From Vallitaleaceae bacterium 9-2 (GTDB taxonomy: Bacteria > Bacillota > Clostridia > Lachnospirales > Vallitaleaceae), in NCBI GenBank assembly GCA_038396585.1, contig CP121691.1, forward strand, positions 1,798,001-1,862,000: a stretch of DNA of 64,000 bases. The letters run 5' to 3'. Both the position numbers and the translations under genes were made by a program. Shown here piece by piece: positions 29,689 to 43,611 of this stretch; the first letter of the stretch is position 1; every line of letters starts with the position of its first letter. The notes beneath the pieces were generated by a model, which was not told where the DNA came from, did not search any database, and saw nothing but the letters and a program-made list of their open reading frames with translations.

Positions 29689-30486
29689 TTATGATAAATG
29701 TGAAATCGCATTTGTCGGACATTTTTCAACACATGCACCACATTGGGTACACTTTTCATAATCGATTTTTGCAAGATTATCCGTCACATGAATGGCGTCA
29801 AATTCACATGCTTTTACGCAAAGTCTGCATGCGATACATCCGACTGCGCAGTTAGATTTAACATCTTTTCCTTTATCTGCGGAATTACATGCGACACGAA
29901 TTTTTGAATCATTAGGGACCATTTCAATAATTGCTTTTGGACATGCATCAACACATTTTCCACAGGCAACACAGTTGTCGTTAATGACAGCAACACCGTC
30001 AATTATATCAATTGCGTTAAACTCGCATGCAGCAACACAACTTCCTAATCCTAAACATCCATATTCACAGCCCTTGGATCCACCACCTTGTAAAAAAGCA
30101 GCATTTTTACAATCCGTCACACCGGCATAAATATATTTTTCTTTGGCCTGTTCACAGGTTCCGTTACATTTAACATAGGCTACTTGGCGTGCTGTTTCTT
30201 TGGCTTCAACACCCATAATCTTTCCAAGTGCCGCCGCTGTGTCACTACCACCTACAGGACAACCGTTAATCGGAGCCTGTCCTTCAACAATACCTTTTGC
30301 AAATGCGTCGCATCCTGCAAATCCACATGCCCCGCAGTTTGCTCCTGGTAATGCATCTCTCACAACAGGAATGAGTGGGTCAACTTTAACTTCGAATTTT
30401 TTTGCTGCATAACCTAAGCCAAGACCAAAGGCAAGACCTAAGCCACCGATGCTTGCAGCAGAAAAAATAATACTTGATATATCCAT
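29689..30486 (-). CDS. rnfB: RNF complex subunit B (iron-sulfur)
   Basis: 265 residues. N-terminal membrane segment, FeS domain LPGANCGACGFAGCDAFAKG, then several ferredoxin clusters (CVACGKCVDACP, CIACRLCVKACEF, CTQCGACVEKCP). Accepts electrons from ferredoxin on the cytoplasmic side of the Na+/H+-pumping ferredoxin:NAD+ oxidoreductase. Last gene of rnfCDGEAB, the clostridial order. Confidence 0.97.
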   Translation of the reverse strand: MDISSIIFSAASIGGLGLAFGLGLGYAAKKFEVKVDPLIPVVRDALPGANCGACGFAGCDAFAKGIVEGQAPINGCPVGGSDTAAALGKIMGVEAKETARQVAYVKCNGTCEQAKEKYIYAGVTDCKNAAFLQGGGSKGCEYGCLGLGSCVAACEFNAIDIIDGVAVINDNCVACGKCVDACPKAIIEMVPNDSKIRVACNSADKGKDVKSNCAVGCIACRLCVKACEFDAIHVTDNLAKIDYEKCTQCGACVEKCPTNAISHLS

Positions 30487-30504: not shown

Positions 30505-31098
30505 CTATTTAATCATTCCGGAAAAACCTAAAAATGCAATTGCCATCAATCCAGCTGTAATTAAAACAATTGGATAACCTTTAAAATGTTTTGGTATTGG
30601 ATTATATTCGATACGCTCACGAATACCTGCTAACAAAACAATTGCAAGAGTAAAACCAACAGCTGTGCCTAGTCCGTTAATTACAGAATGAATCAAACCG
30701 AAATCACCGTTTGTTTGAATACTTTTTTGCATATTAATTACAGCAACACCAAGTACTGCACAGTTTGTTGTAATTAGTGGTAAAAACACACCTAATGCTT
30801 GATACAAAGATGGGCTTGTTTTTTGGATAACCATCTCAACCAATTGAACCAGTGAAGCGATAACTAGAATAAATGCAATAGTATACAAATATTCGATTTC
30901 TAAAGGTTTTAAAATTGCATAAAATACAATATGTGAAATCAAAGATGCTAAGGTCATAACAAAAGTTACGGCCATGCCCATACCTATAGATGTTTCGATT
31001 TTTTTTGAAACACCTAAGAAAGGACATATACCTAAGAATCTCGATAATACGACGTTATTAACTAAAACCGCACTTATAAATAATAATACAAATTCCAT
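30505..31098 (-). CDS. rnfA: RNF complex subunit A
   Basis: 197 residues, six hydrophobic segments; paralogue of RnfE with opposite topology. SRFLGICPFLGVSKKI and the TTNCAVLGVA stretch carry the Cys residues known to bind an inter-subunit FeS cluster. Confidence 0.96.
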   Translation of the reverse strand: MEFVLLFISAVLVNNVVLSRFLGICPFLGVSKKIETSIGMGMAVTFVMTLASLISHIVFYAILKPLEIEYLYTIAFILVIASLVQLVEMVIQKTSPSLYQALGVFLPLITTNCAVLGVAVINMQKSIQTNGDFGLIHSVINGLGTAVGFTLAIVLLAGIRERIEYNPIPKHFKGYPIVLITAGLMAIAFLGFSGMIK

Positions 31099-31107
31099 AT
31101 GCGCCTC

Positions 31108-31713
31108 CTACCCTTTCGTACCTGATGCTTTGATCTTATTAAATGCAGCAAACATGAACCCTAAAACAAGGAATGCACCTGGAGCTAATATAAAAATTGT
31201 TACGGGTTGATACCATGACAATTTTAATAATTGAAAACCAAAAATACTTCCTGCACCAATGATTTCACGAATTGCACCAAGGATAGTCAAAGCTAACGTA
31301 AAGCCAAGTCCCATACCAACACCGTCAAAGATAGCATGTAAAGGACCATTTTTGGATGCAAATGCTTCCGCACGACCAAGAACAATACAGTTTACCACAA
31401 TCAGTGGAATAAAAAGTCCAAGAGAGTCATAAAGTGCTGGTATATACCCTTGTAATAATAAATCAACAATCGTAACAAACGTTGCGATAATTACAATGAA
31501 TGCTGGTATACGTACTTTTGCAGGGATGATTTTTCGTAGTAATGAGATAACAAGGTTTGAACCAAAAAGAACACTGGTTGTTGCAAGTCCCATTCCTAAA
31601 CCATTTGTCGCACTTGATGTTACTGCGAGTGTCGGACACATTCCAAGGACTTGAACTAAAACAGGGTTTTCATCAAAAAGTCCATTTTTAATCAATTTCA
31701 TTAGTTTTGCCAT
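31108..31713 (-). CDS. rnfE: RNF complex subunit E
   Basis: 201 residues, six hydrophobic segments. [22 protein letters not shown] and [14 protein letters not shown] match RnfE, including the Cys pair expected for the membrane FeS site shared with RnfA. Stop overlaps nothing; the rnfG stop and rnfE start share a base. Confidence 0.96.
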
Positions 31714-32285
31714 TAGTTCCCCTCCTTAATGATGTCATTATAATAGATAATTGCTTCGTTCACAGCGGCAGTTACTGCTGAGGACGTAATCGTTGCGCCA
31801 CCTATAGCATCAATGTTTTGACCATCGCTATTTCCTTTTACAAGGGTTAACAAGGATGCTGCTTTTTGAACAAATTGATTTTTAAAGGGGGCATCATCAG
31901 CTTTTGCTCCGAGACCCGGTGTCTCTGTATGACTGATAATATCAATTCCATTAAGTGTTCCATCGGCATTGATTCCTACCATCATATTGATCGTTCCATC
32001 ATAACCTTCTGTCGTTGCTAGTTGAAAAGCATACCCTTTAACATCACTCGTATCTTTATCCGTAGCTTCATATACTTTGGTGATAAACTTCACCTCACCT
32101 TGGATATCTGTTTCTTCAAAAGAAGCGTTTTCCATAACTGCAGCCAATGCGTTTTCTGTTTTGATACGTGTTTGTTCTGCAATAGCGTCTAATGTAAAAT
32201 TATATGTAAGACCTAAAAGTAATCCGGCAATCAATGTAATTCCACATAAAATGAGTGCATTTTTTAATATCGAATCTTTTTTCAT
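31713..32285 (-). CDS. rnfG: RNF complex subunit G (covalent FMN)
   Basis: 190 residues from the ATG at 32285, which follows GGGGAGGAG; an ATG six codons upstream has no ribosome site. One membrane segment, then the flavin domain; the flavinylation site is in [10 protein letters not shown], Thr of the S/TGAT-type motif near residue 168. Confidence 0.95.
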
Positions 32286-32286
32286 T

Positions 32287-33246
32287 TTACTTCTCCTCCC
32301 CAAAAGCTCGTGGTATTGTATAACGATCTATGAGTGGAACAGCAAGGTTCATAATTATAATTGCAAAAGAGACACCTTCTGGATATGCTCCGAATAATCG
32401 AATCAATGCGGTTATAACTCCACATCCTACGGCAAAAATAATTTGACCGATACTTGTCATGGGAGAGGTTGTATAGTCTGTTGCCATAAAAAATGCACCA
32501 AGCATCAAACCACCACCGAATAAATGATAACCGACTAAACTTAAGTCGAGACCGCCGTTGAATATGCTATATAAAAGAACGAAGATTCCAACAGTACCTA
32601 TGTAGAAAACCGGAATTCTATAGCTGATGACTTTCCGAGCGATTAAGTATAGCCCCCCGATTAAAATGGCAAGTGCTGATACTTCACCAATACTTCCGGA
32701 CACAGTCCCAATAAAGGCTTCAAATACGCTTTGATCAACAACCCCACCTTCTTTTAAAGAACCAAGAATTGTAGCGGATGCTACTGTATCAACTTCTGGC
32801 CAGGTTGTCATATGCTCTGCAAAAGAAATAATTAAAAATGCCCGAGCTGCAAGTGCTGGATTCATGAAGTTATTTCCGATGCCTCCAAATAATTGTTTTA
32901 CGACAATAATGGCAAATAAACTTCCGATAATTGGGACAACAATTGCAAGCATGTAAGGCATATTCGGCAAGGCTGCTGGAAGGTTTAACCCTAATAACAA
33001 TCCTGTAACTGCCGCTGAACCGTCATTGATGCGAACAGGTTCATGCATAAGCTTTTGATATAGATATTCAAAAAATACCGCTGATACAGTTGATATGAGC
33101 ACTGTAAAAATAGCCGCCACTCCAAAGACATAAAATCCAACAAGTGTTGCTGGAATTAAGGCAATAATAACATCTCGCATTATGTGGCTTGTTGTATCGT
33201 TTGAGCGCACATGGGGAGATGATGAAACAATTGTAAGTTCTGACAT
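32287..33246 (-). CDS. rnfD: RNF complex subunit D
   Basis: 319 residues starting at 33246, behind GGAGG with good spacing; a longer reading frame to 33360 lies inside rnfC and has no family similarity. Eight or more hydrophobic segments. ATDYTTSPMT is the flavinylation region, GGIGNNFMNPALAARAFL is conserved. Membrane core of the ion pump. Confidence 0.96.
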   Translation of the reverse strand: MSELTIVSSSPHVRSNDTTSHIMRDVIIALIPATLVGFYVFGVAAIFTVLISTVSAVFFEYLYQKLMHEPVRINDGSAAVTGLLLGLNLPAALPNMPYMLAIVVPIIGSLFAIIVVKQLFGGIGNNFMNPALAARAFLIISFAEHMTTWPEVDTVASATILGSLKEGGVVDQSVFEAFIGTVSGSIGEVSALAILIGGLYLIARKVISYRIPVFYIGTVGIFVLLYSIFNGGLDLSLVGYHLFGGGLMLGAFFMATDYTTSPMTSIGQIIFAVGCGVITALIRLFGAYPEGVSFAIIIMNLAVPLIDRYTIPRAFGEEK

Positions 33247-33259
33247 GATAATCCTCCTT

Positions 33260-34600
33260 CTACTTTCTACGCTCAGCCATGATTGTGCGTCGTGTCGTTC
33301 GAATGGATTGCACAATATGACGCTTTGAAGGACATACAAATGAACATGAACCACACTCAATACAGTTCATACCCTTATATGTTTCAAAAGCTTCATTGGC
33401 GTTGTTACGAGCAAATCGATCTAAATCCAGTGGCAACAGGTTCATTGGACATGCATCAACACATTTTCCGCAACGGATACATGGACTCTCCTCGCCTGAA
33501 TGCAATTCTTGATCCGATAACAATAAGATGGATGAGGATGTTTTTATAATTGGGATATCAATATCAAAGATTGCGATTCCCATCATCGGACCACCTGAGA
33601 TGATTTTTTTTGTGTTTTCAAGATCACCGCCTGCATATTCAATGAGTTGACGATAGCTAGTACCTATTTTAACTTTATAGTTTCCAGGATTTTTTACATT
33701 TTCGCCAGAAAGTGTTACAATGCGTCGCATTAAAGGTCGACCTCTAAAGAAGGCACGATGAATAGCAACTACAGTATCAATATTTTGTACGATGCATCCA
33801 GCATCGGCAGGAAGCTTACCAGCAGGAACTTCGCGTTTAGTTACGGAGTAAATTAATTGCTTTTCAGCTCCTTGAGGATATTTTGTTGCCAACGTTGCAA
33901 CTTCCATGTTTTTAGCAATCTCTAAGTTCGATTCTTTTTGAAATGCAGCTAGTGCATTTTTCATTGCTTCAATAGCATCCGGCTTGTTATCTTCGATACC
34001 GATAATTCCCTTTGCCTCAGGGTATAAGGTCAAGATAACCGACAACCCCATAATGACACGATCGGCTTCTTCAAGCATAACACGATGGTCTGATGTTAAA
34101 TAAGGTTCACATTCAGCACCATTGACAATAATATAGTCAATCACCTTATCTTTTGGTGGATTTAATTTTATAAATGTTGGGAATCCTGCACCTCCCATTC
34201 CTACAATACCAGCTTCGCGTATTGTTGCCAAGATGTCATCCTTACTCATGGTATATGGATCTTTTGGTGTCATGTCGACTTCATTGTACAATCCATCATT
34301 TTCAATGATGATTCCACTGCTTTTTGAGCCGTTTGGATGTAATACATCCATAATTTTTTTTACTTTTCCAGATACAGTACTGTGTACCGGAGCGCTAACA
34401 AAACTTTCCGAATCACCAATCTTTTGGCCGACAAGTACTTCATCACCGACTTTTACCAGTGCAGAACATGGCGCACCAATATGCTGTTGCAGCATAATCG
34501 TTACGTCACCTTCTGGAAGAACGTATTCGATTGCCTTGTCTTTCGTGAAATTTTTAGCGTGTTTTGGGTGAATCCCTTTTTTAAATGTTAAACTGGACAT
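33260..34600 (-). CDS. rnfC: RNF complex subunit C (NADH/FMN, FeS)
   Basis: 446 residues. N-terminal barrel domain, Rossmann-like NADH/FMN part with GMGGAGFPTFIKL, SLBB-like part, then two 4Fe-4S sites CIRCGKCVDACP and CIECGSCSFVCP. Shorter than the gammaproteobacterial RnfC, as usual in clostridia. First gene of the operon; a TTGACA -35 at 34691-34686 on the minus strand marks a possible promoter. Confidence 0.97.
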   Translation of the reverse strand: MSSLTFKKGIHPKHAKNFTKDKAIEYVLPEGDVTIMLQQHIGAPCSALVKVGDEVLVGQKIGDSESFVSAPVHSTVSGKVKKIMDVLHPNGSKSSGIIIENDGLYNEVDMTPKDPYTMSKDDILATIREAGIVGMGGAGFPTFIKLNPPKDKVIDYIIVNGAECEPYLTSDHRVMLEEADRVIMGLSVILTLYPEAKGIIGIEDNKPDAIEAMKNALAAFQKESNLEIAKNMEVATLATKYPQGAEKQLIYSVTKREVPAGKLPADAGCIVQNIDTVVAIHRAFFRGRPLMRRIVTLSGENVKNPGNYKVKIGTSYRQLIEYAGGDLENTKKIISGGPMMGIAIFDIDIPIIKTSSSILLLSDQELHSGEESPCIRCGKCVDACPMNLLPLDLDRFARNNANEAFETYKGMNCIECGSCSFVCPSKRHIVQSIRTTRRTIMAERRK

Positions 34601-34762
34601 TCTAGACCCCCTGTCTAATTTTTTTCAAATTTATCATACTTATAATAAAACATTTTTCCTTTATTTACAAGGTGTGTTAATAAACTGTCAATTACCTAAG
34701 AAGCAATAAAAATCAAGGTTTTCCGCTATTTGCACATTGTATACAATATTCATGTCAAATAA

Positions 34763-34802
34763 AAGAGTAAAAAAACTTTGGAATATCCTGTTTTTTACTC
34801 TT
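34763..34802. terminator. Hairpin between hydrogenase module and rnf operon
   Basis: AAGAGTAAAAAA at 34763-34774 pairs with TTTTTTACTCTT at 34791-34802. AT-rich, and symmetrical, so it can act in both directions; most useful to end the minus-strand module at 34813. Confidence 0.55.
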
Positions 34803-34812
34803 CTTTGTTAAT

Positions 34813-35361
34813 TCATTCACTATTATGTAAAGCAGAAATGTTCTCAGAAAGATACTCTCGTATCCATTGCGATATTTCAGGCGTACTTAATGGGATATCT
34901 CCCAAAATATCTTTTAGCATTTGAGTACTTAATGAAAAGGACTGATTGTCAACAGTGTATGAAAACTGAATCTGTATCGTCTCATGGGAAATAAGTAGTG
35001 TTAAAATTGTTGAAACAAGATTTCCCATAGGTGGTCGATCAATATGTGATAGCTCCATTGTTGCCTTAAGGCAAGTTCCTTTTCCGGGTTCACTATCAAT
35101 CGTTAGCCTTCCACTACAATTTTGACACGTATCATTTAGTAAAGGGATGCCAAGACCAACCTTTCTTGTCGTTCGACTGGTAACGAATGGATTTTTGATT
35201 TCTTTTAAAATCTGGGGTGGTATCCCCTTTCCATTGTCAATAATAGTTAATTCTAAGGTATCCTTTTCTAAGTCTTCGCTGACATTAATGGTAATGTTTG
35301 TTGCATTTGCTCGTATGCTGTTGTTGGCAATATCTAAAATATGATATGAAAGTTCTTTCAT
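34813..35361 (-). CDS. HATPase-type ATP-binding protein in hydrogenase module
   Basis: 182 residues. GHKL ATPase domain (1-105): N box HILDIANNSIRANA, G1 box DNGKGIP, G2-like GLGIPLLND, as in sensor kinases, but no dimerisation His or sensor domain is present. A variable C-terminal half (110-182) resembles nothing I know. Starts two bases after the DRTGG gene upstream; last gene of the five-gene module. Likely a kinase or switch driven by the module. Confidence 0.8.
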   Translation of the reverse strand: MKELSYHILDIANNSIRANATNITINVSEDLEKDTLELTIIDNGKGIPPQILKEIKNPFVTSRTTRKVGLGIPLLNDTCQNCSGRLTIDSEPGKGTCLKATMELSHIDRPPMGNLVSTILTLLISHETIQIQFSYTVDNQSFSLSTQMLKDILGDIPLSTPEISQWIREYLSENISALHNSE

Positions 35362-35363
35362 AT

Positions 35364-35696
35364 TTATATGCCCAATTGTCCAAGTTTTTTTGCAATCGCA
35401 TAGGAAGACTCTTCGGATGATAAGAGAACAACATTTTCTTCAACGGCTTTTTGAATGGCTTCATCATCAATGACGAAACCTTCAGATACAATGATACAAC
35501 CAATATCTGCCAATGTTGCAACTGCAACGATGTTAATATGGCTTTGAACAGTAACCCAGACACATCCTTCTGGCGCTTTGCCCATGACAACACTGAGCAA
35601 GTCACCAATATAACCTGTTTCAATGGTTTTGTCGAGTGCATTCTCCCCTGTAACGACTTTTAAATTGAGTGGGGATATAATATCTTTTATTTGCAT
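35364..35696 (-). CDS. DRTGG-domain protein
   Basis: 110 residues consisting of one DRTGG domain (MQIKDIISPLNLKVVTGEN, then GYIGDLLSVVMGKAPEG). Such domains occur in phosphotransacetylase and CBS-domain proteins and are thought to bind a small ligand; the ligand is unknown. It sits between the hydrogenase gene and the C-terminal HATPase gene, and a second DRTGG gene lies upstream of the hydrogenase. Confidence 0.82.
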   Translation of the reverse strand: MQIKDIISPLNLKVVTGENALDKTIETGYIGDLLSVVMGKAPEGCVWVTVQSHINIVAVATLADIGCIIVSEGFVIDDEAIQKAVEENVVLLSSEESSYAIAKKLGQLGI

Positions 35697-35711
35697 GATA
35701 GACCTCCTGTT

Positions 35712-37028
35712 TTATTGTTTATCTATATGTCGAATGGATGGTGGCATCTTTCCAGCAAGGCTCACCATATTTTGCGCGACATCACGAACTTTTTCCCTTA
35801 ACATGAAAATACAATCTTCAATATTTGCATTGCCTTGAACAATATCTTCAGCTAAAGCATGACATGTTGGCGCACCGCATGAGCCGCAATCGATCTGTGG
35901 CAATGTCTTAAATATTTTCTCCAGGCGTTCCATCTTATCCAAGGCAACAACCATATCATCATCAAGCTTTAATACTTGCTTATTGGTTAATGAATATTGC
36001 CAATCAAGTTCAATGTTGTCGCGATACATATCTAGCTCACGTGTTTTTCCCAGCGAATTAATATATTTTTTGACCTTTGCCATACGATTAGTAGCAACAA
36101 ATGAATTTTCCACAGTTAGCGGACCACCCAGGCATCCATTGGTACAAGCAAGGCACTCAACAAATTCAACATCCAGCTTGTTGTTTTCAACACGTTCAAG
36201 AATCTCTATAACATTTTCAATACCATCAACAGCAACATGGTTATACACCTGAGACGCAAGACCTTCACCGCCAGTTGCTGCCCACCCTATTCCTCGACTA
36301 GTTGAGGTTTGAAGTATTTCTACTTCATCAGGTTGCATGTTTTTTATGATTGGAAGCATTAATTTATACACATCCTTAATCGATATGATTCCATCGACTT
36401 CAGAATGATCAAAGGTATCCGGATATCTTGAGTCTGTTACTTTAGCCGCGCATGGGCTGATAAAGAAAATTCCAATATCTTCAGCAGGAATGCCCTTTTG
36501 AATCAAATGCCGACGAGCGTATCTGGCACTGGCTTCTTTAGGAGAAATGACCGGCAATACATTAGGAATCAACGAAGGAAAGCGCATCTCAACTAGCTTG
36601 ACAATTGCCGGACAAGCACTTGATATGATTGGAGATACAACTTTTTCCTGCTCCATGATATGGCGGCTATATTCAGTGACTATCTCAGCTGCACGTGCCA
36701 CTTCATACACTTCGTCAAAACCTAATTTTTTTAAGGCGGTTAAGATCACATTCGGGTCTCTAATTTTTTTAAATTGTGTATAAAGCGTTGGTGCAGGTAT
36801 GGCAACTTTGTACTTATAGTCATAGATTTTTTCAAAAGAATCTGTCATGGCTTTTTTGGCATGACTTTTACAGACACGAATACACATTCCACAGTCAATA
36901 CAACGAGCATCTGTTATCTCTGCTTTTGAATTGTGAACACGTATTGCTTCGGTCGGACATCGTTTAATACAGTCAGTACATCCAATACATTTTTCCCAAT
37001 CTAATGTAACTGAATGCGAAGTTCCCAT
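35712..37028 (-). CDS. [FeFe]-hydrogenase-like protein, probably sensory
   Basis: 438 residues. Two N-terminal 4Fe-4S sites (CIGCTDCIKRC, CIDCGMCIRVC), the hydrogenase H-domain, then a C-terminal FeS domain (C381, C384, C389, C406). H-cluster Cys ligands are kept: C139 in SSACP, C193 in SPCAAK, C295 and C299 in CLACTNGC. The proton-shuttling Cys normally before C139 is Ala and the Met before the second ligand is Ser, the changes I know from group D putative sensory enzymes such as TamHydS. So fast H2 turnover is unlikely. ATG at 37028 follows AGGAGG. Neighbours are DRTGG and HATPase genes. Confidence 0.85.
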   Translation of the reverse strand: MGTSHSVTLDWEKCIGCTDCIKRCPTEAIRVHNSKAEITDARCIDCGMCIRVCKSHAKKAMTDSFEKIYDYKYKVAIPAPTLYTQFKKIRDPNVILTALKKLGFDEVYEVARAAEIVTEYSRHIMEQEKVVSPIISSACPAIVKLVEMRFPSLIPNVLPVISPKEASARYARRHLIQKGIPAEDIGIFFISPCAAKVTDSRYPDTFDHSEVDGIISIKDVYKLMLPIIKNMQPDEVEILQTSTSRGIGWAATGGEGLASQVYNHVAVDGIENVIEILERVENNKLDVEFVECLACTNGCLGGPLTVENSFVATNRMAKVKKYINSLGKTRELDMYRDNIELDWQYSLTNKQVLKLDDDMVVALDKMERLEKIFKTLPQIDCGSCGAPTCHALAEDIVQGNANIEDCIFMLREKVRDVAQNMVSLAGKMPPSIRHIDKQ

Positions 37029-37053
37029 AATCACTTCCTCCTAAATTATATCA

Positions 37054-37464
37054 TTATAAATCAAAAGATATTTCAACTACCGTACCTACATTGACTTCGG
37101 AATGCACTTGAAGAAAATCACTATAGCGCTTAATATTAGGTAAACCCATTCCGGCACCAAACCCCATAGTTCTTGCCTGTTCTGAAGCCGTTGAGTATCC
37201 GGCCGTCATGGCAAGATCAATATCTGGGATACCAGGACCTTGGTCTTCAAGTCGTACATAGATTTTGGTCGGTGTCACTTCAGCAAGAATCTCTCCTCCA
37301 TTGGCATGAATGACCATGTTGATTTCAGCTTCATACATTGCAATGGCAATTTTTCGTATAATTGTTGAAGGAATGCCTAGTTGCTGGAGTGCTGTTTTGA
37401 ATTTTGAGGATGCAACTCCGGCATCAATAAATTCATTTCCCTCGACTTCATAAGTGAATTTCAT
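37054..37464 (-). CDS. RsbW/SpoIIAB-like ATPase in hydrogenase module
   Basis: 136 residues, serine-kinase/anti-sigma type GHKL ATPase: N box MYEAEINMVIHANGG, G1 DQGPGIP, G2 GFGAGMGLPNIK. RsbW relatives phosphorylate STAS antagonists or hold sigma factors; no STAS or sigma gene is adjacent, so the partner may be the hydrogenase-like protein or DRTGG proteins. Overlaps the upstream DRTGG gene by 17 bases. Confidence 0.82.
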   Translation of the reverse strand: MKFTYEVEGNEFIDAGVASSKFKTALQQLGIPSTIIRKIAIAMYEAEINMVIHANGGEILAEVTPTKIYVRLEDQGPGIPDIDLAMTAGYSTASEQARTMGFGAGMGLPNIKRYSDFLQVHSEVNVGTVVEISFDL

Positions 37465-37819
37465 CGTGAGCTATTTCCTCTCCTAATAATCCGTGTTGAA
37501 AAAGTAATCCTGAAGCTGTAAATAAGGAGTGACTTGTGCGAATCATTACAATGCTGCGTTCATTTGCCATACGAATCATATCTTCAGACGGCGATTTGCC
37601 CCGAACGATTAAGATGGCTTTAATATCCAACATCTCAGCAGTACGTATGACTTGTGGATGGACAAGTCCTGTTAATAACAAAACATTGTTTTGTACATAG
37701 GCTAACACATCGCTCATTAAATCGCAACTATATCCATAATCAATCTCTTCCATGAGCAATGCCTCCGTGCCGCAAATTAATTCGCCTTGTAAGATCTCCA
37801 ATATTTGTTGTATTTTCAT
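37448..37819 (-). CDS. DRTGG-domain protein (second copy)
   Basis: 123 residues, one DRTGG-like domain (MKIQQILEILQGELICGTE, YGYSCDLMSDVLAYVQNN). ATG at 37819 behind AGGAGG; an upstream in-frame start at 37858 lacks one. First gene of the five-gene module DRTGG, RsbW-like, [FeFe]-like, DRTGG, HATPase. Confidence 0.82.
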   Translation of the reverse strand: MKIQQILEILQGELICGTEALLMEEIDYGYSCDLMSDVLAYVQNNVLLLTGLVHPQVIRTAEMLDIKAILIVRGKSPSEDMIRMANERSIVMIRTSHSLFTASGLLFQHGLLGEEIAHDEIHL

Positions 37820-40851: not shown

Positions 40852-42675
40852 TTATTCGGTTACGGCTGAATATCCGTGATTAATCCAACCATGCGGAGCA
40901 TTGCTATCCATTCCCATACCACCATTAAGTGAAACAGCATCATAACCTGCCAAACGCATAGCTGCAACAGCTTGTCCTGCAGTTTGACCTGTATAGCAAT
41001 AGACAACAACTTTTTTATCCTTAGGAACATCACTTGTACGTATACCCGCCATCATGTCATTACCAAAAGGAATATTTTTTGCACCTTGAATATGACCTTC
41101 GTCATAAGCATCAGCTCCACGGATAGATAATAGATAAAAGTCTTCACTATTTTCAATCATCGTGTTCAAATCATCTTCAGATATCTTATAGTTGGCAAAA
41201 GTCGTTCCCTTAACATCGTCTAATCCGTTATAATAGCTATCTAAAGCTGTCTGAACTTCCGAATCTACTGTATAGAGAGTTTCATCAAATGTTGCAGGCT
41301 CTGTTGTAGTGAGTGCATCTACACCTTCAACAGTAGATATGCCAAGCATCCAACCAAGATTTACACTACGCGCATTGATTCCTGCAATGTTCATCGTCGC
41401 AACCGCTTGTCCTGCAGTTTGACCTGTATAACAATAGACAAAAACTTCCTTATCTTGAGGAATCTTTGCTAGATTGCTTGCAATAGCCGGTCCCCAAGGT
41501 ACGTTGATAGCGCCTTGAATGTGTCCTTCGTTATAGGCGTCAGCACCACGAATATCAAGAATAACCATATCATCACCTGCGATAACCTTATCAACAAAAT
41601 CTTTTTGACCTATTTTATAAATGTGCTCAGGCATATTGGCAAAATAATTGTCAACCAATTCATCAATGGAAGCTGCTTCCTGTACAACGGTTGAATATCC
41701 GTGATTAATCCAACCATGCGGAGCATTGCTATCCATTCCCATACCACCATTAAGTGAAACAGCATCATAACCTGCCAAACGCATAGCGGCAACCGCTTGT
41801 CCTGCAGTTTGACCTGTATAGCAATAGACAACAACTTTTTTATCCTTAGGAACATCGCTTGTACGTATACCCGCCATCATGTCATTACCAAAAGGAATAT
41901 TTTTTGCGCCTTGAATATGACCTTCGTCATAAGCATCAGCTCCACGGATAGATAATAGATAAAAGTCTTCACTATTTTCAATCATCGTGTTCAAATCATC
42001 TTCAGATATCTTATAGTTGGCAAAAGTCGTTCCTTTAACATCGCCTAATCCGTTATAATAGCTATCTAAAGCTGTCTGAACTTCCGAATCTACTGTATAG
42101 AGAGTTTCATCAAATGTTGCAGGCTCTGTTGTAGTGAGTGCATCTACACCTTCAACAGTAGATATGCCAAGCATCCAACCAAGATTTACACTACGCGCAT
42201 TGATTCCTGCAATGTTCATCGTCGCAACCGCTTGTCCTGCAGTTTGACCTGTATAACAATAGACAAAAACTTCCTTATCTTGAGGAATCTTTGCTAGATT
42301 GGTTGCAATAGCCGGTCCCCAAGGTACGTTGATAGCACCTTGAATGTGTCCTTCGTTATAAGCGTCGGCACCGCGAATATCAAGAATAACCATATCATCA
42401 CCTGCGATGATTTTATCAACAAAATCTTTTTGACCTATTTTATAAATGTGCTCAGGCATATTGGCAAAATAATTGTCGATTAGAGTATTCAAATCTGCCA
42501 CGTCACCAGTTGCTTCGTCATCGCTTGATGTAGTATCATCAGAGGATTCACTGACGTCTTTTCCACCGGTTAAATCCATAGAATATTCTTGTGTATCCTT
42601 ATTATTACATGCTGACAACCCAATAATCATACTTACAATGAGTAAGAGTGTCATTATTTTTTTTGCGTTTTGCAT
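40852..42675 (-). CDS. Surface lipoprotein with four rhodanese domains
   Basis: 607 residues. Signal and lipobox LSAC (Cys23), a Ser/Asp/Thr-rich linker to about 65, then four rhodanese domains in two near-identical tandem units of 275 residues. Each has DIRGADAYNEGHIQGA-like or SIRGADAYDEGHIQGA and the active loop VYCYTGQTAGQ with the catalytic Cys. Probably transfers sulfur outside the membrane. It follows a two-domain rhodanese lipoprotein by 27 bases. Near-identity of the copies indicates recent duplication. Confidence 0.88.
   Translation of the reverse strand: MQNAKKIMTLLLIVSMIIGLSACNNKDTQEYSMDLTGGKDVSESSDDTTSSDDEATGDVADLNTLIDNYFANMPEHIYKIGQKDFVDKIIAGDDMVILDIRGADAYNEGHIQGAINVPWGPAIATNLAKIPQDKEVFVYCYTGQTAGQAVATMNIAGINARSVNLGWMLGISTVEGVDALTTTEPATFDETLYTVDSEVQTALDSYYNGLGDVKGTTFANYKISEDDLNTMIENSEDFYLLSIRGADAYDEGHIQGAKNIPFGNDMMAGIRTSDVPKDKKVVVYCYTGQTAGQAVAAMRLAGYDAVSLNGGMGMDSNAPHGWINHGYSTVVQEAASIDELVDNYFANMPEHIYKIGQKDFVDKVIAGDDMVILDIRGADAYNEGHIQGAINVPWGPAIASNLAKIPQDKEVFVYCYTGQTAGQAVATMNIAGINARSVNLGWMLGISTVEGVDALTTTEPATFDETLYTVDSEVQTALDSYYNGLDDVKGTTFANYKISEDDLNTMIENSEDFYLLSIRGADAYDEGHIQGAKNIPFGNDMMAGIRTSDVPKDKKVVVYCYTGQTAGQAVAAMRLAGYDAVSLNGGMGMDSNAPHGWINHGYSAVTE
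40865..42483. repeat. 825-bp tandem direct duplication inside the rhodanese gene
   Basis: Copies about 40865-41656 and 41690-42481; the same phrase (starting AATATCCGTG) begins at 40869 and 41694. Identity is very high (roughly 98% by eye), with scattered single-base changes, mostly synonymous. The period of 825 keeps the reading frame (275 codons). Confidence 0.9.
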
Positions 42676-42702: not shown

Positions 42703-43611
42703 TTACGAACCGTCGGCAGCAGAAGGTGTGACCACTTCATCAGACTGTTCTTGCATTGGAACATCTTTAGTTGACCATTCAAGCCATGCTCCGTCATAAA
42801 CGATAATATTTTCATACCCTGCTTCTTCTAATAGGAGCGCTGTTTGAGCAGCTCGAACAGAAGTCTTGCAAAAGATGATGATAGTATCATCACGATTTAA
42901 GCCTAAGTCTGAGTAATCGTTGTAGGTATCTCTTGAAGATTTGAATGTTCCATCTGTATAAACGTTGTTCGTATGTGGATAAAGAATACTTGTTGGAATT
43001 GTTCCTTCTGCATATTCTGCATTTGAGCGTACATCAAGTATTTTTGCCTGTTCGATTCCTTCAACCACTTCCAACACTTCATCTGTTGTTGCTATCATTG
43101 AAGTATTCATATCTTTAGCAGTATATTGCACAGGCTCAATTTCTGGAATGTTCATGGATAGTTCAAGTCCTTCTTTAACAATGGCAACTTCGCCACCATT
43201 GACCACCTTCACATTTTCATGACCATATACTTTCATAACCCACCATATACGAGCGGCATATATTCCGTCTTTGTTATCATAGATATAAACCTCTGAATCC
43301 GGTGTGATACCTTTGCTACCTAAAACTGCTTCAACCTGTTCTTTTGGCGCTATAATTCCAGGAACAGGTTCAGAAATACTTACTTCGGCAGAGGTTAAGT
43401 TAATTGCTCCTGCCAAATGACCCTTTGCATAATCTTCTTCGCTTCGAGCGTCTATTACAACGACATCGTCTTTTGAAAGTAATGGACCTAACTGGCTTGC
43501 TTCAATGATGTGTGGACTTTCATTGTAGGTTGTCGTGTTACAGCCAACGATTGTTAATAAAACAACAAACACAAGCGCAAGTATAGCCCCTTTCTTTATC
43601 ATTATGTTCAT
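42703..43611 (-). CDS. Two-domain rhodanese lipoprotein (thiosulfate sulfurtransferase type)
   Basis: 302 residues. Lipobox LTIVGC (Cys24); an N-terminal rhodanese domain (35-160; VVVIDARSEEDYAKGHLAGA) and a C-terminal one (175-290; ILDVRSNAEYAEGT) with the active loop IIIFCKTSVRAAQ (Cys and Arg). This is the SseA-like two-domain plan in secreted form; the donor (thiosulfate or other) is unknown. ATG at 43611 behind AGGAGG. Upstream of the four-domain gene. Confidence 0.87.
   Translation of the reverse strand: MNIMIKKGAILALVFVVLLTIVGCNTTTYNESPHIIEASQLGPLLSKDDVVVIDARSEEDYAKGHLAGAINLTSAEVSISEPVPGIIAPKEQVEAVLGSKGITPDSEVYIYDNKDGIYAARIWWVMKVYGHENVKVVNGGEVAIVKEGLELSMNIPEIEPVQYTAKDMNTSMIATTDEVLEVVEGIEQAKILDVRSNAEYAEGTIPTSILYPHTNNVYTDGTFKSSRDTYNDYSDLGLNRDDTIIIFCKTSVRAAQTALLLEEAGYENIIVYDGAWLEWSTKDVPMQEQSDEVVTPSAADGS

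Follow-up and report, generated by a model that had tools for sequence, protein, structure and literature searches.

A candidate H2/redox-signalling cassette around a group D [FeFe]-hydrogenase beside the RNF operon of Vallitaleaceae bacterium 9-2

Introduction

The residues and motifs by which group D (M2e) [FeFe]-hydrogenases are recognized have been published for TamHydS of Thermoanaerobacter mathranii (PMC8163306; PMC13104023). TamHydS is slow and reversible, with a raised affinity for H2 (PMC8163306), and a 2012 survey classed the M2e enzymes as "sensory" because kinases and bifurcating hydrogenases are encoded nearby (PMC3561251). How a group D hydrogenase that lacks a PAS domain could relay a signal is a question raised by the authors of the TamHydS study (PMC8163306). 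In this work, we analyzed a stretch of 64,000 nucleotides from Vallitaleaceae bacterium 9-2 (contig CP121691.1, positions 1,798,001 to 1,862,000; hereafter the window), in which a block of five genes next to the RNF operon contains such a hydrogenase, HydS. On balance, we favor the view that these five genes form an H2/redox-sensing signalling cassette acting at the ferredoxin/NADH node. Group D sensory hydrogenases with regulatory neighbors are already known, and a mechanism that goes beyond the word "sensor" is proposed below.

Results

The five open reading frames reported in an earlier note on this DNA are all present on the minus strand between 34813 and 37819. Based on the open reading frame calls and the Pfam/NCBIfam matches, they are arranged with operon-like packing in the order DRT1-HAT1-HydS-DRT2-HAT2, with intergenic distances of -17, about +25, +15, and +2 nt:

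37448..37819, minus strand: DRT1 (DRTGG1), DRTGG-domain protein of 123 aa, first gene of the cassette (ATG at 37819; PF07085, 2e-7; overlap with HAT1 of 17 nt)
37054..37464, minus strand: HAT1, stand-alone SpoIIAB/RsbW-like ATPase and putative Ser/Thr kinase of 136 aa (PF13581/PF02518; best NCBIfam match SpoIIAB, TIGR01925, 3.5e-14)
35712..37028/37034, minus strand: HydS, assigned to the group D (M2e) [FeFe]-hydrogenases (PF02906, Fer4, and PF04060)
35364..35696, minus strand: DRT2 (DRTGG2), DRTGG-domain protein of 110 aa (PF02603, 1e-6; PF07085, 5e-6)
34813..35361, minus strand: HAT2, predicted GHL-type ATPase of 182 aa with an alpha/beta extension at the C-terminus (PF02518, 1.5e-17)

For HydS, the ATG at 37028 is a likelier start than the GTG at 37034 because AGGAGG stands before the former and the relatives begin there.

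The earlier note had named unlinked neighbors in most relatives as an outcome that would speak against a module, and the comparison of gene order found the opposite. Flanking sequence of 2.5 kb or more is available on both sides at 91 loci; DRT1, HAT1, and DRT2 all surround HydS in 85 of these, and of the six that deviate, L101 simply has DRT1 and HAT1 fused. Among 299 sampled genomes of the phylum, HydS was found in 117, HAT1 in 126, and DRT1 in 124; of the 117 that have HydS, 116 also have HAT1 (Fisher p 9e-70, a value that takes no account of shared ancestry). This conservation and co-occurrence argue that the cassette is not a product of chance and bear out the claim that the hydrogenase has conserved partners. 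The loci named here represent the 80 best entries in a longer list, and many of the genomes are metagenome bins. Two loci from Alkaliphilus/Anaerosolibacter (L073 and L109) have a reduced cassette, in which HydS directly follows DRT1 with no HAT1 in between. A viral or mobile origin of the cassette was considered and set aside, as a single-sequence query found no match among viral contigs.

Several of these genes are fused in other genomes. We found DRT1-HAT1 fusions (L017, L019, L020, L026, L030, L101, and L208), a HAT1-HydS fusion (L198), HydS-DRT2 fusions (L035 and L197), and a fusion of HAT2 with the PHP phosphoesterase gene that accompanies the cassette in most relatives (PHP-HAT2; L205). 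These fusions run along the order of the cassette and therefore suggest physical contact between the products, although several of the fusion loci stem from metagenome bins.

Judged by its residues and motifs, the window HydS is a textbook group D (M2e) enzyme of the TamHydS type. At the CpI positions 299, 353, and 497, it has Ala (in SSACP), Ser (in SPCAAK), and Leu (in CLAC). The earlier note had read the first two of these residues correctly but overlooked the Leu in place of Met497, as well as the Cx2Cx4Cx16C motif at the C-terminus, in which an Asp precedes the first and the last Cys. The N-terminal part carries two [4Fe-4S] motifs. Across 151 HydS relatives, the window included, the four Cys ligands of the H-cluster are always retained and the four extra C-terminal Cys are invariant; the relay position 299 is never Cys (Ala in 125 and Ser in 24), and position 353 (Met353) is Ser or Thr in 150. 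Because HydG is encoded in the same genome, the H-cluster can be built in this host. The window HydS is approximately 49% identical to that of T. wiegelii and groups with the Thermoanaerobacter set, apart from its own-genome paralogs, in a placement set that excludes TamHydS itself and has these two paralogs as the sole group C-like references.

With the relay Cys, Met353, and Met497 replaced by Ala, Ser, and Leu, HydS is not a group A catalytic hydrogenase. Membership in the group C sensory hydrogenases was also dropped, since Pfam detected no PAS domain in HydS, which rules out the usual form of group C; as a control, an HfsB-like protein of the same genome does score as PAS. Taken together, the sensing-type enzyme proposed in the earlier note is supported by the residues and belongs in group D rather than C, and a role of HydS as sensor is likely.

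Other putative sensory hydrogenases are encoded in the same genome. An Hfs-like cluster at approximately 1.26 Mb of C1 (L192:7025-11637) contains a thioredoxin-like 2Fe-2S protein, a PAS-bearing group C-like hydrogenase, a SpoIIE/PP2C phosphatase, and a second [FeFe]-hydrogenase. At approximately 2.16 Mb (L193:5204-7138), a protein of 645 aa joins an [FeFe]-hydrogenase H-domain to a methyl-accepting chemotaxis protein signalling domain (PF00015); it has Pro at the position of the relay Cys and is a possible H2 or redox chemoreceptor. Three different putative sensory hydrogenases are thus encoded in this genome.

The position of HydS can be taken by another type of domain. Six sampled genomes have the HAT1 family but no group D HydS. 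Three of these six (loci L215, L217, L218, and L219) carry HAT1 as a fusion with two CBS domains in tandem (Pfam 6e-30 or better). DRT1, DRT2, PHP, and HAT2 are kept around the fusion in L215, L218, and L219, giving the order DRT1-[CBS-CBS-HAT1]-DRT2-PHP-HAT2, whereas the CBS pair and HydS are both present in L221. Since a ligand-sensing domain can fill the position of HydS, this sensor swap favors a sensing over an enzymatic role.

The two ATPases, described as a pair in the earlier note, are both present but not alike. In a profile search of solved structures, HAT1 matched SpoIIAB best (5e-12), followed by RsbW (9e-5). Its E45-x3-N49, which aligns with the N box of SpoIIAB and keeps the catalytic Glu, is invariant in 104 of 104 relatives, as are H53, DxGxG, and GFGAGMG; HAT1 thus has the N-box E-x3-N and the G boxes that define the SpoIIAB/RsbW family. 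For HAT2, sequence profiles favor a histidine-kinase CA domain, but the fold prediction instead favors the GHL ATPases. The best structural matches of the AlphaFold2 model (pLDDT 94) are MutL, PMS2, TopoVI-B, and GyrB (Z 12-14, about 150 residues within positions 1-170). HAT2 is therefore predicted to have a MutL/GyrB-type GHL fold and may work like these proteins; membership in the GHL ATPases is not claimed, as the N box (D10-x3-N14, invariant in the relatives) has Asp10 in place of their catalytic Glu. Pfam found no DHp/HisKA domain in either protein, both being stand-alone ATPase domains, and no response regulator was found among the neighboring genes, which speaks against a two-component output. 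The suggestion that the output passes through GHKL kinases may consequently hold for HAT1 at most.

The predicted structure of DRT1 (AlphaFold2, pLDDT 89) has a DRTGG fold (2ioj, TM 0.78). Residues D33, S36, D37, G51, R59, T60, R73, and K75 are invariant or nearly so among 105 relatives of DRT1, and the same holds for D32-L-L-S35, T49, and N55 among 100 relatives of DRT2. An invariant D-[LM]-[LM]-S occurs in both proteins and lies at the start of a helix in the DRT1 model. By analogy with SpoIIAA, our guess is that the Ser of this motif could be a phosphorylation site.

The RNF operon (C-D-G-E-A-B) starts 212 nt downstream of the cassette on the same strand, in agreement with the earlier note:

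34762..34803, minus strand: hairpin with a T tract, intrinsic-terminator-like, between HAT2 and rnfC (fold -13.9 kcal/mol, z -3.5)
34736..34747, no strand: palindrome ATTGTATACAAT 5' of rnfC, a probable operator, GntR-like in form (exact copies before other rnfC genes)
33260..34600, minus strand: rnfC, first gene of the RNF operon (sequence; adjacency kept within the family)
32287..33246, minus strand: rnfD (open reading frame and sequence)
31713..32285, minus strand: rnfG (open reading frame and sequence)
31108..31713, minus strand: rnfE (open reading frame and sequence)
30505..31098, minus strand: rnfA (open reading frame and sequence)
29689..30486, minus strand: rnfB (PF04060 Fe-S domain)

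The C-terminal Fe-S domain of HydS (35712-37034) and the N-terminal one of RnfB (29689-30486) both belong to PF04060 and have identical Cys spacing.

The linkage to RNF is real but is restricted to the family of the window and a few other lineages; the neighbor in most relatives is HydABC. Their usual order is DRT1-HAT1-HydS-DRT2-PHP-HydC-HAT2-[2Fe-2S]-HydB-HydA, with a bifurcating hydrogenase (e.g., T. wiegelii, L056). In every genome of the window family with a readable flank, and in three loci from the same taxonomic order (L175-L177), HAT2 is the last gene of the block and RNF comes next. The PHP-HydC-[2Fe-2S]-HydB-HydA genes of the window genome lie at 773-778 kb with neither HAT2 nor the core block (L194), which weakens the idea of HAT2 as a dedicated HydABC subunit; in the relatives of the window, PHP and HydB are likewise elsewhere in the genome, approximately 1-2 kb apart. 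Within that taxonomic order, unsplit clusters in which HAT2 stands ahead of PHP were found in L082, L183, and L185. The simplest account of these gene orders is that an ancestral cluster broke once between HAT2 and PHP and that the sensor half moved to RNF. A quick tree built from 110 HydS sequences puts the number of changes needed for the RNF setting at four, of which well-supported branches force at least three; judged from this tree, RNF adjacency arose at least three times. Separate RNF-linked cases are L201 (on a long branch) and L209, with a further one in L221 that was not placed on the tree, and in L217 RNF adjoins a HydS-less version of the cassette.

Rex is an NADH sensor, and its gene lies directly upstream of the block in several lineages (L017, L019, L020, L026, L029, L030, L101, L215, L222, and L223). 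Rex genes in or beside the cassette were also noted in L213, L215, L222, and L223. Rex-like operators, defined as at least 12 of 14 positions of TTGTTAAnnnnTTAACAA, which we take to be the consensus, were enriched, occurring before hydC in 21 of 63 cases (0.9 expected from first-order Markov shuffles), before rnfC in nine of 21 (0.6 expected), and before DRT1 in 11 of 102 (1.0 expected). Rex control is not claimed for the promoters of the window itself, as the sites there are poor (11-12 of 14). The palindrome ATTGTATACAAT is exact in eight of the 21 rnfC upstream regions examined (0.0 expected) and conserved within the family. It has only four exact sites in the genome, the three besides that of the window being at C1:401404, 1608172, and 1707627; these copies possibly mark a small regulon. 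The stem of the hairpin between HAT2 and rnfC is preserved by compensatory changes in a sister genome (L157; GAGT/ACTC to AGGC/GCCT), and an Rfam scan of the window matched no RNA element. Because the hairpin with its T tract and the exact palindrome precede rnfC, RNF is probably transcribed from a promoter of its own, and if the cassette acts on RNF, it more likely does so at the protein level.

Elsewhere in the window, 40852-42675 encodes a lipoprotein-like protein of 607 aa with two nearly identical halves and four rhodanese domains, and a double-rhodanese protein is encoded upstream of it (42703-43611).

Discussion

The gene block, the HydS residues, the fusions, and the swaps of sensor and target can be read from the sequences, whereas the complex, the kinase activity, the DRTGG proteins as substrates, and the direction and target of the output are inferred. 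In the mechanism that we propose, the slow group D HydS would act as the sensor, with H2 or reduced ferredoxin shifting its H-cluster and Fe-S chain to a different state. Within a complex, HydS would be flanked by DRT1-HAT1 and, on its other side, by DRT2, and the signal would control how active HAT1 is; this SpoIIAB-type ATPase is probably a Ser/Thr kinase. The most likely targets of HAT1 would be the two DRTGG proteins with their shared D-[LM]-[LM]-S. As a GHL-type ATP switch, HAT2 may then relay the result, probably at the protein level, to the ferredoxin/NADH machinery, which would be RNF in the window lineage and bifurcating HydABC in most relatives.

Several points weigh against this proposal. 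No STAS-domain antagonist, the usual substrate of SpoIIAB/RsbW, was found in the cassette or the scanned neighboring genes, and the cassette has no dedicated transcription factor. A few loci lack HAT1 or DRT2 (L073 and L109). The terminator-like hairpin and the separate operator before rnfC make shared transcription of the cassette and RNF doubtful. The C-terminal cluster of TamHydS is not reduced by H2, which bears on the signal path from the H-cluster (PMC13104023). Finally, the literature that we found describes no member for which phospho-transfer, contact between proteins, or a response to H2 in vivo was measured.

Other explanations account for parts of these observations. In a transcriptional partner switch, HAT1 would be an anti-sigma factor/kinase like SpoIIAB/RsbW and the DRTGG proteins anti-anti-sigma factors, with HydS controlling the partner of HAT1 so that a distant sigma factor is freed. 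The closeness of HAT1 to SpoIIAB and RsbW would fit, as would a set of regulator-like genes without a DNA-binding protein of its own. However, the block has no sigma factor or STAS gene, the DRTGG fold is unlike STAS, and the target operons bear Rex-like operators and a separate palindrome instead; we regard this explanation as fairly unlikely. It is improbable that the block is an ATP-driven assembly or quality-control unit, in which HAT2 and HAT1 would help to assemble the multi-cluster HydABC or RNF on HydS as a scaffold. HAT2 does have a predicted GHL fold, resembling that of MutL or Hsp90 relatives, and is usually located between hydC and the 2Fe-2S gene, but the hydCBA genes of the window genome are left without HAT2 and the core, and HydS keeps all H-cluster ligands throughout its 151 relatives. 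RNF also functions without HAT2 in many bacteria.

HydS could also be a working enzyme that passes electrons of H2 to or from RNF, through ferredoxin or its RnfB-like PF04060 domain. The adjacency to RNF, the PF04060 domain common to HydS and RnfB, and the reversible, though slow, activity of TamHydS (PMC8163306) are in favor, whereas the relay Cys is lost throughout the relatives, most of these are not near RNF, the cassette can persist intact without HydS, and H2 does not reduce the C-terminal cluster of TamHydS (PMC13104023). This makes such a role quite improbable. That the RNF adjacency is a functionally meaningless coincidence of one rearrangement appears highly improbable. Within the taxonomic order to which the window belongs, the adjacency does trace to one split of the ancestral cluster, and a hairpin stands between the cassette and RNF, but this explanation is already weakened because other families have RNF-linked cases of their own (L201, L209, and L221, and L217 without HydS).

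Returning to the signalling cassette, we tentatively suggest, as a possibility that falls short of an even chance, a wider and previously undescribed plug-in system of anaerobic Clostridia with the layout DRTGG1-kinase-[sensor]-DRTGG2-PHP-GHL ATPase. Either a group D hydrogenase, responding to H2/ferredoxin, or a CBS pair, responding to nucleotides, would serve as the sensor, the machine would be swapped between HydABC and RNF, a SpoIIAB-like kinase would act on the DRTGG proteins, and the PHP phosphoesterase may be an antagonist. In the literature searched, we found no description of the DRTGG pair, the four-gene core as a unit, the fusions, the RNF setting and its origin, the CBS replacement, or the GHL nature of HAT2, although older work may cover the layout in part; a search for "DRTGG" with "hydrogenase" returned a single paper, on an unrelated lactate-utilisation gene. 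The earlier remark that the partners are poorly described thus holds for the DRTGG proteins, whereas this kind of hydrogenase and its kinase neighbors had been published (PMC3561251; PMC8163306). The conserved block, the fusions, and the CBS replacement name likely partners for signalling by PAS-less group D hydrogenases and give direct tests. If the proposal is true, the cassette would be a dedicated control layer, neither two-component nor classic partner switching, over the ferredoxin/NADH balance, on which the yields of H2, ethanol, and energy depend in many anaerobes.

Comparison With Known Systems

Among regulatory proteins, the SpoIIAB/RsbW anti-sigma kinases share family, N-box Glu and Asn, and G boxes with HAT1, which differs in its longer lid (GFGAGMG), in having DRTGG rather than STAS partners, and in its linked sensor hydrogenase or CBS pair. 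The GHL ATPases MutL, GyrB, and TopoVI-B share their fold with residues 1-170 of HAT2, but the latter is small at 182 aa, lacks a full transducer domain, carries Asp for the catalytic Glu, and has no known link to DNA. The DRTGG proteins share their fold with the regulatory domains of CBS-DRTGG pyrophosphatase, AF1212, and the N-terminal part of HprK, whereas those of the cassette stand alone and have the invariant D-[LM]-[LM]-S.

Among hydrogenases, the group C sensory enzymes (HydS/HfsB with PAS, the Hfs operon with a PP2C-type phosphatase, and T. maritima HydS) are putative sensors too and resemble the window HydS in their C-terminal Fe-S cluster and regulatory neighbors, but the window HydS lacks PAS, has other partners, and has no PP2C phosphatase. 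The closest described system is TamHydS, which matches the window HydS in having Ala, Ser, and Leu at the relay Cys, Met353, and Met497, two N-terminal [4Fe-4S] motifs, the C-terminal Cx2Cx4Cx16C with flanking Asp, no PAS, and an ATPase gene close by; T. wiegelii, a congener of its host, carries the same cassette (L056). The difference lies in the setting, as the TamHydS gene is upstream of a bifurcating HydABC with PHP, whereas the window HydS adjoins RNF, in a cassette that includes HAT2 while PHP stayed with hydCBA.

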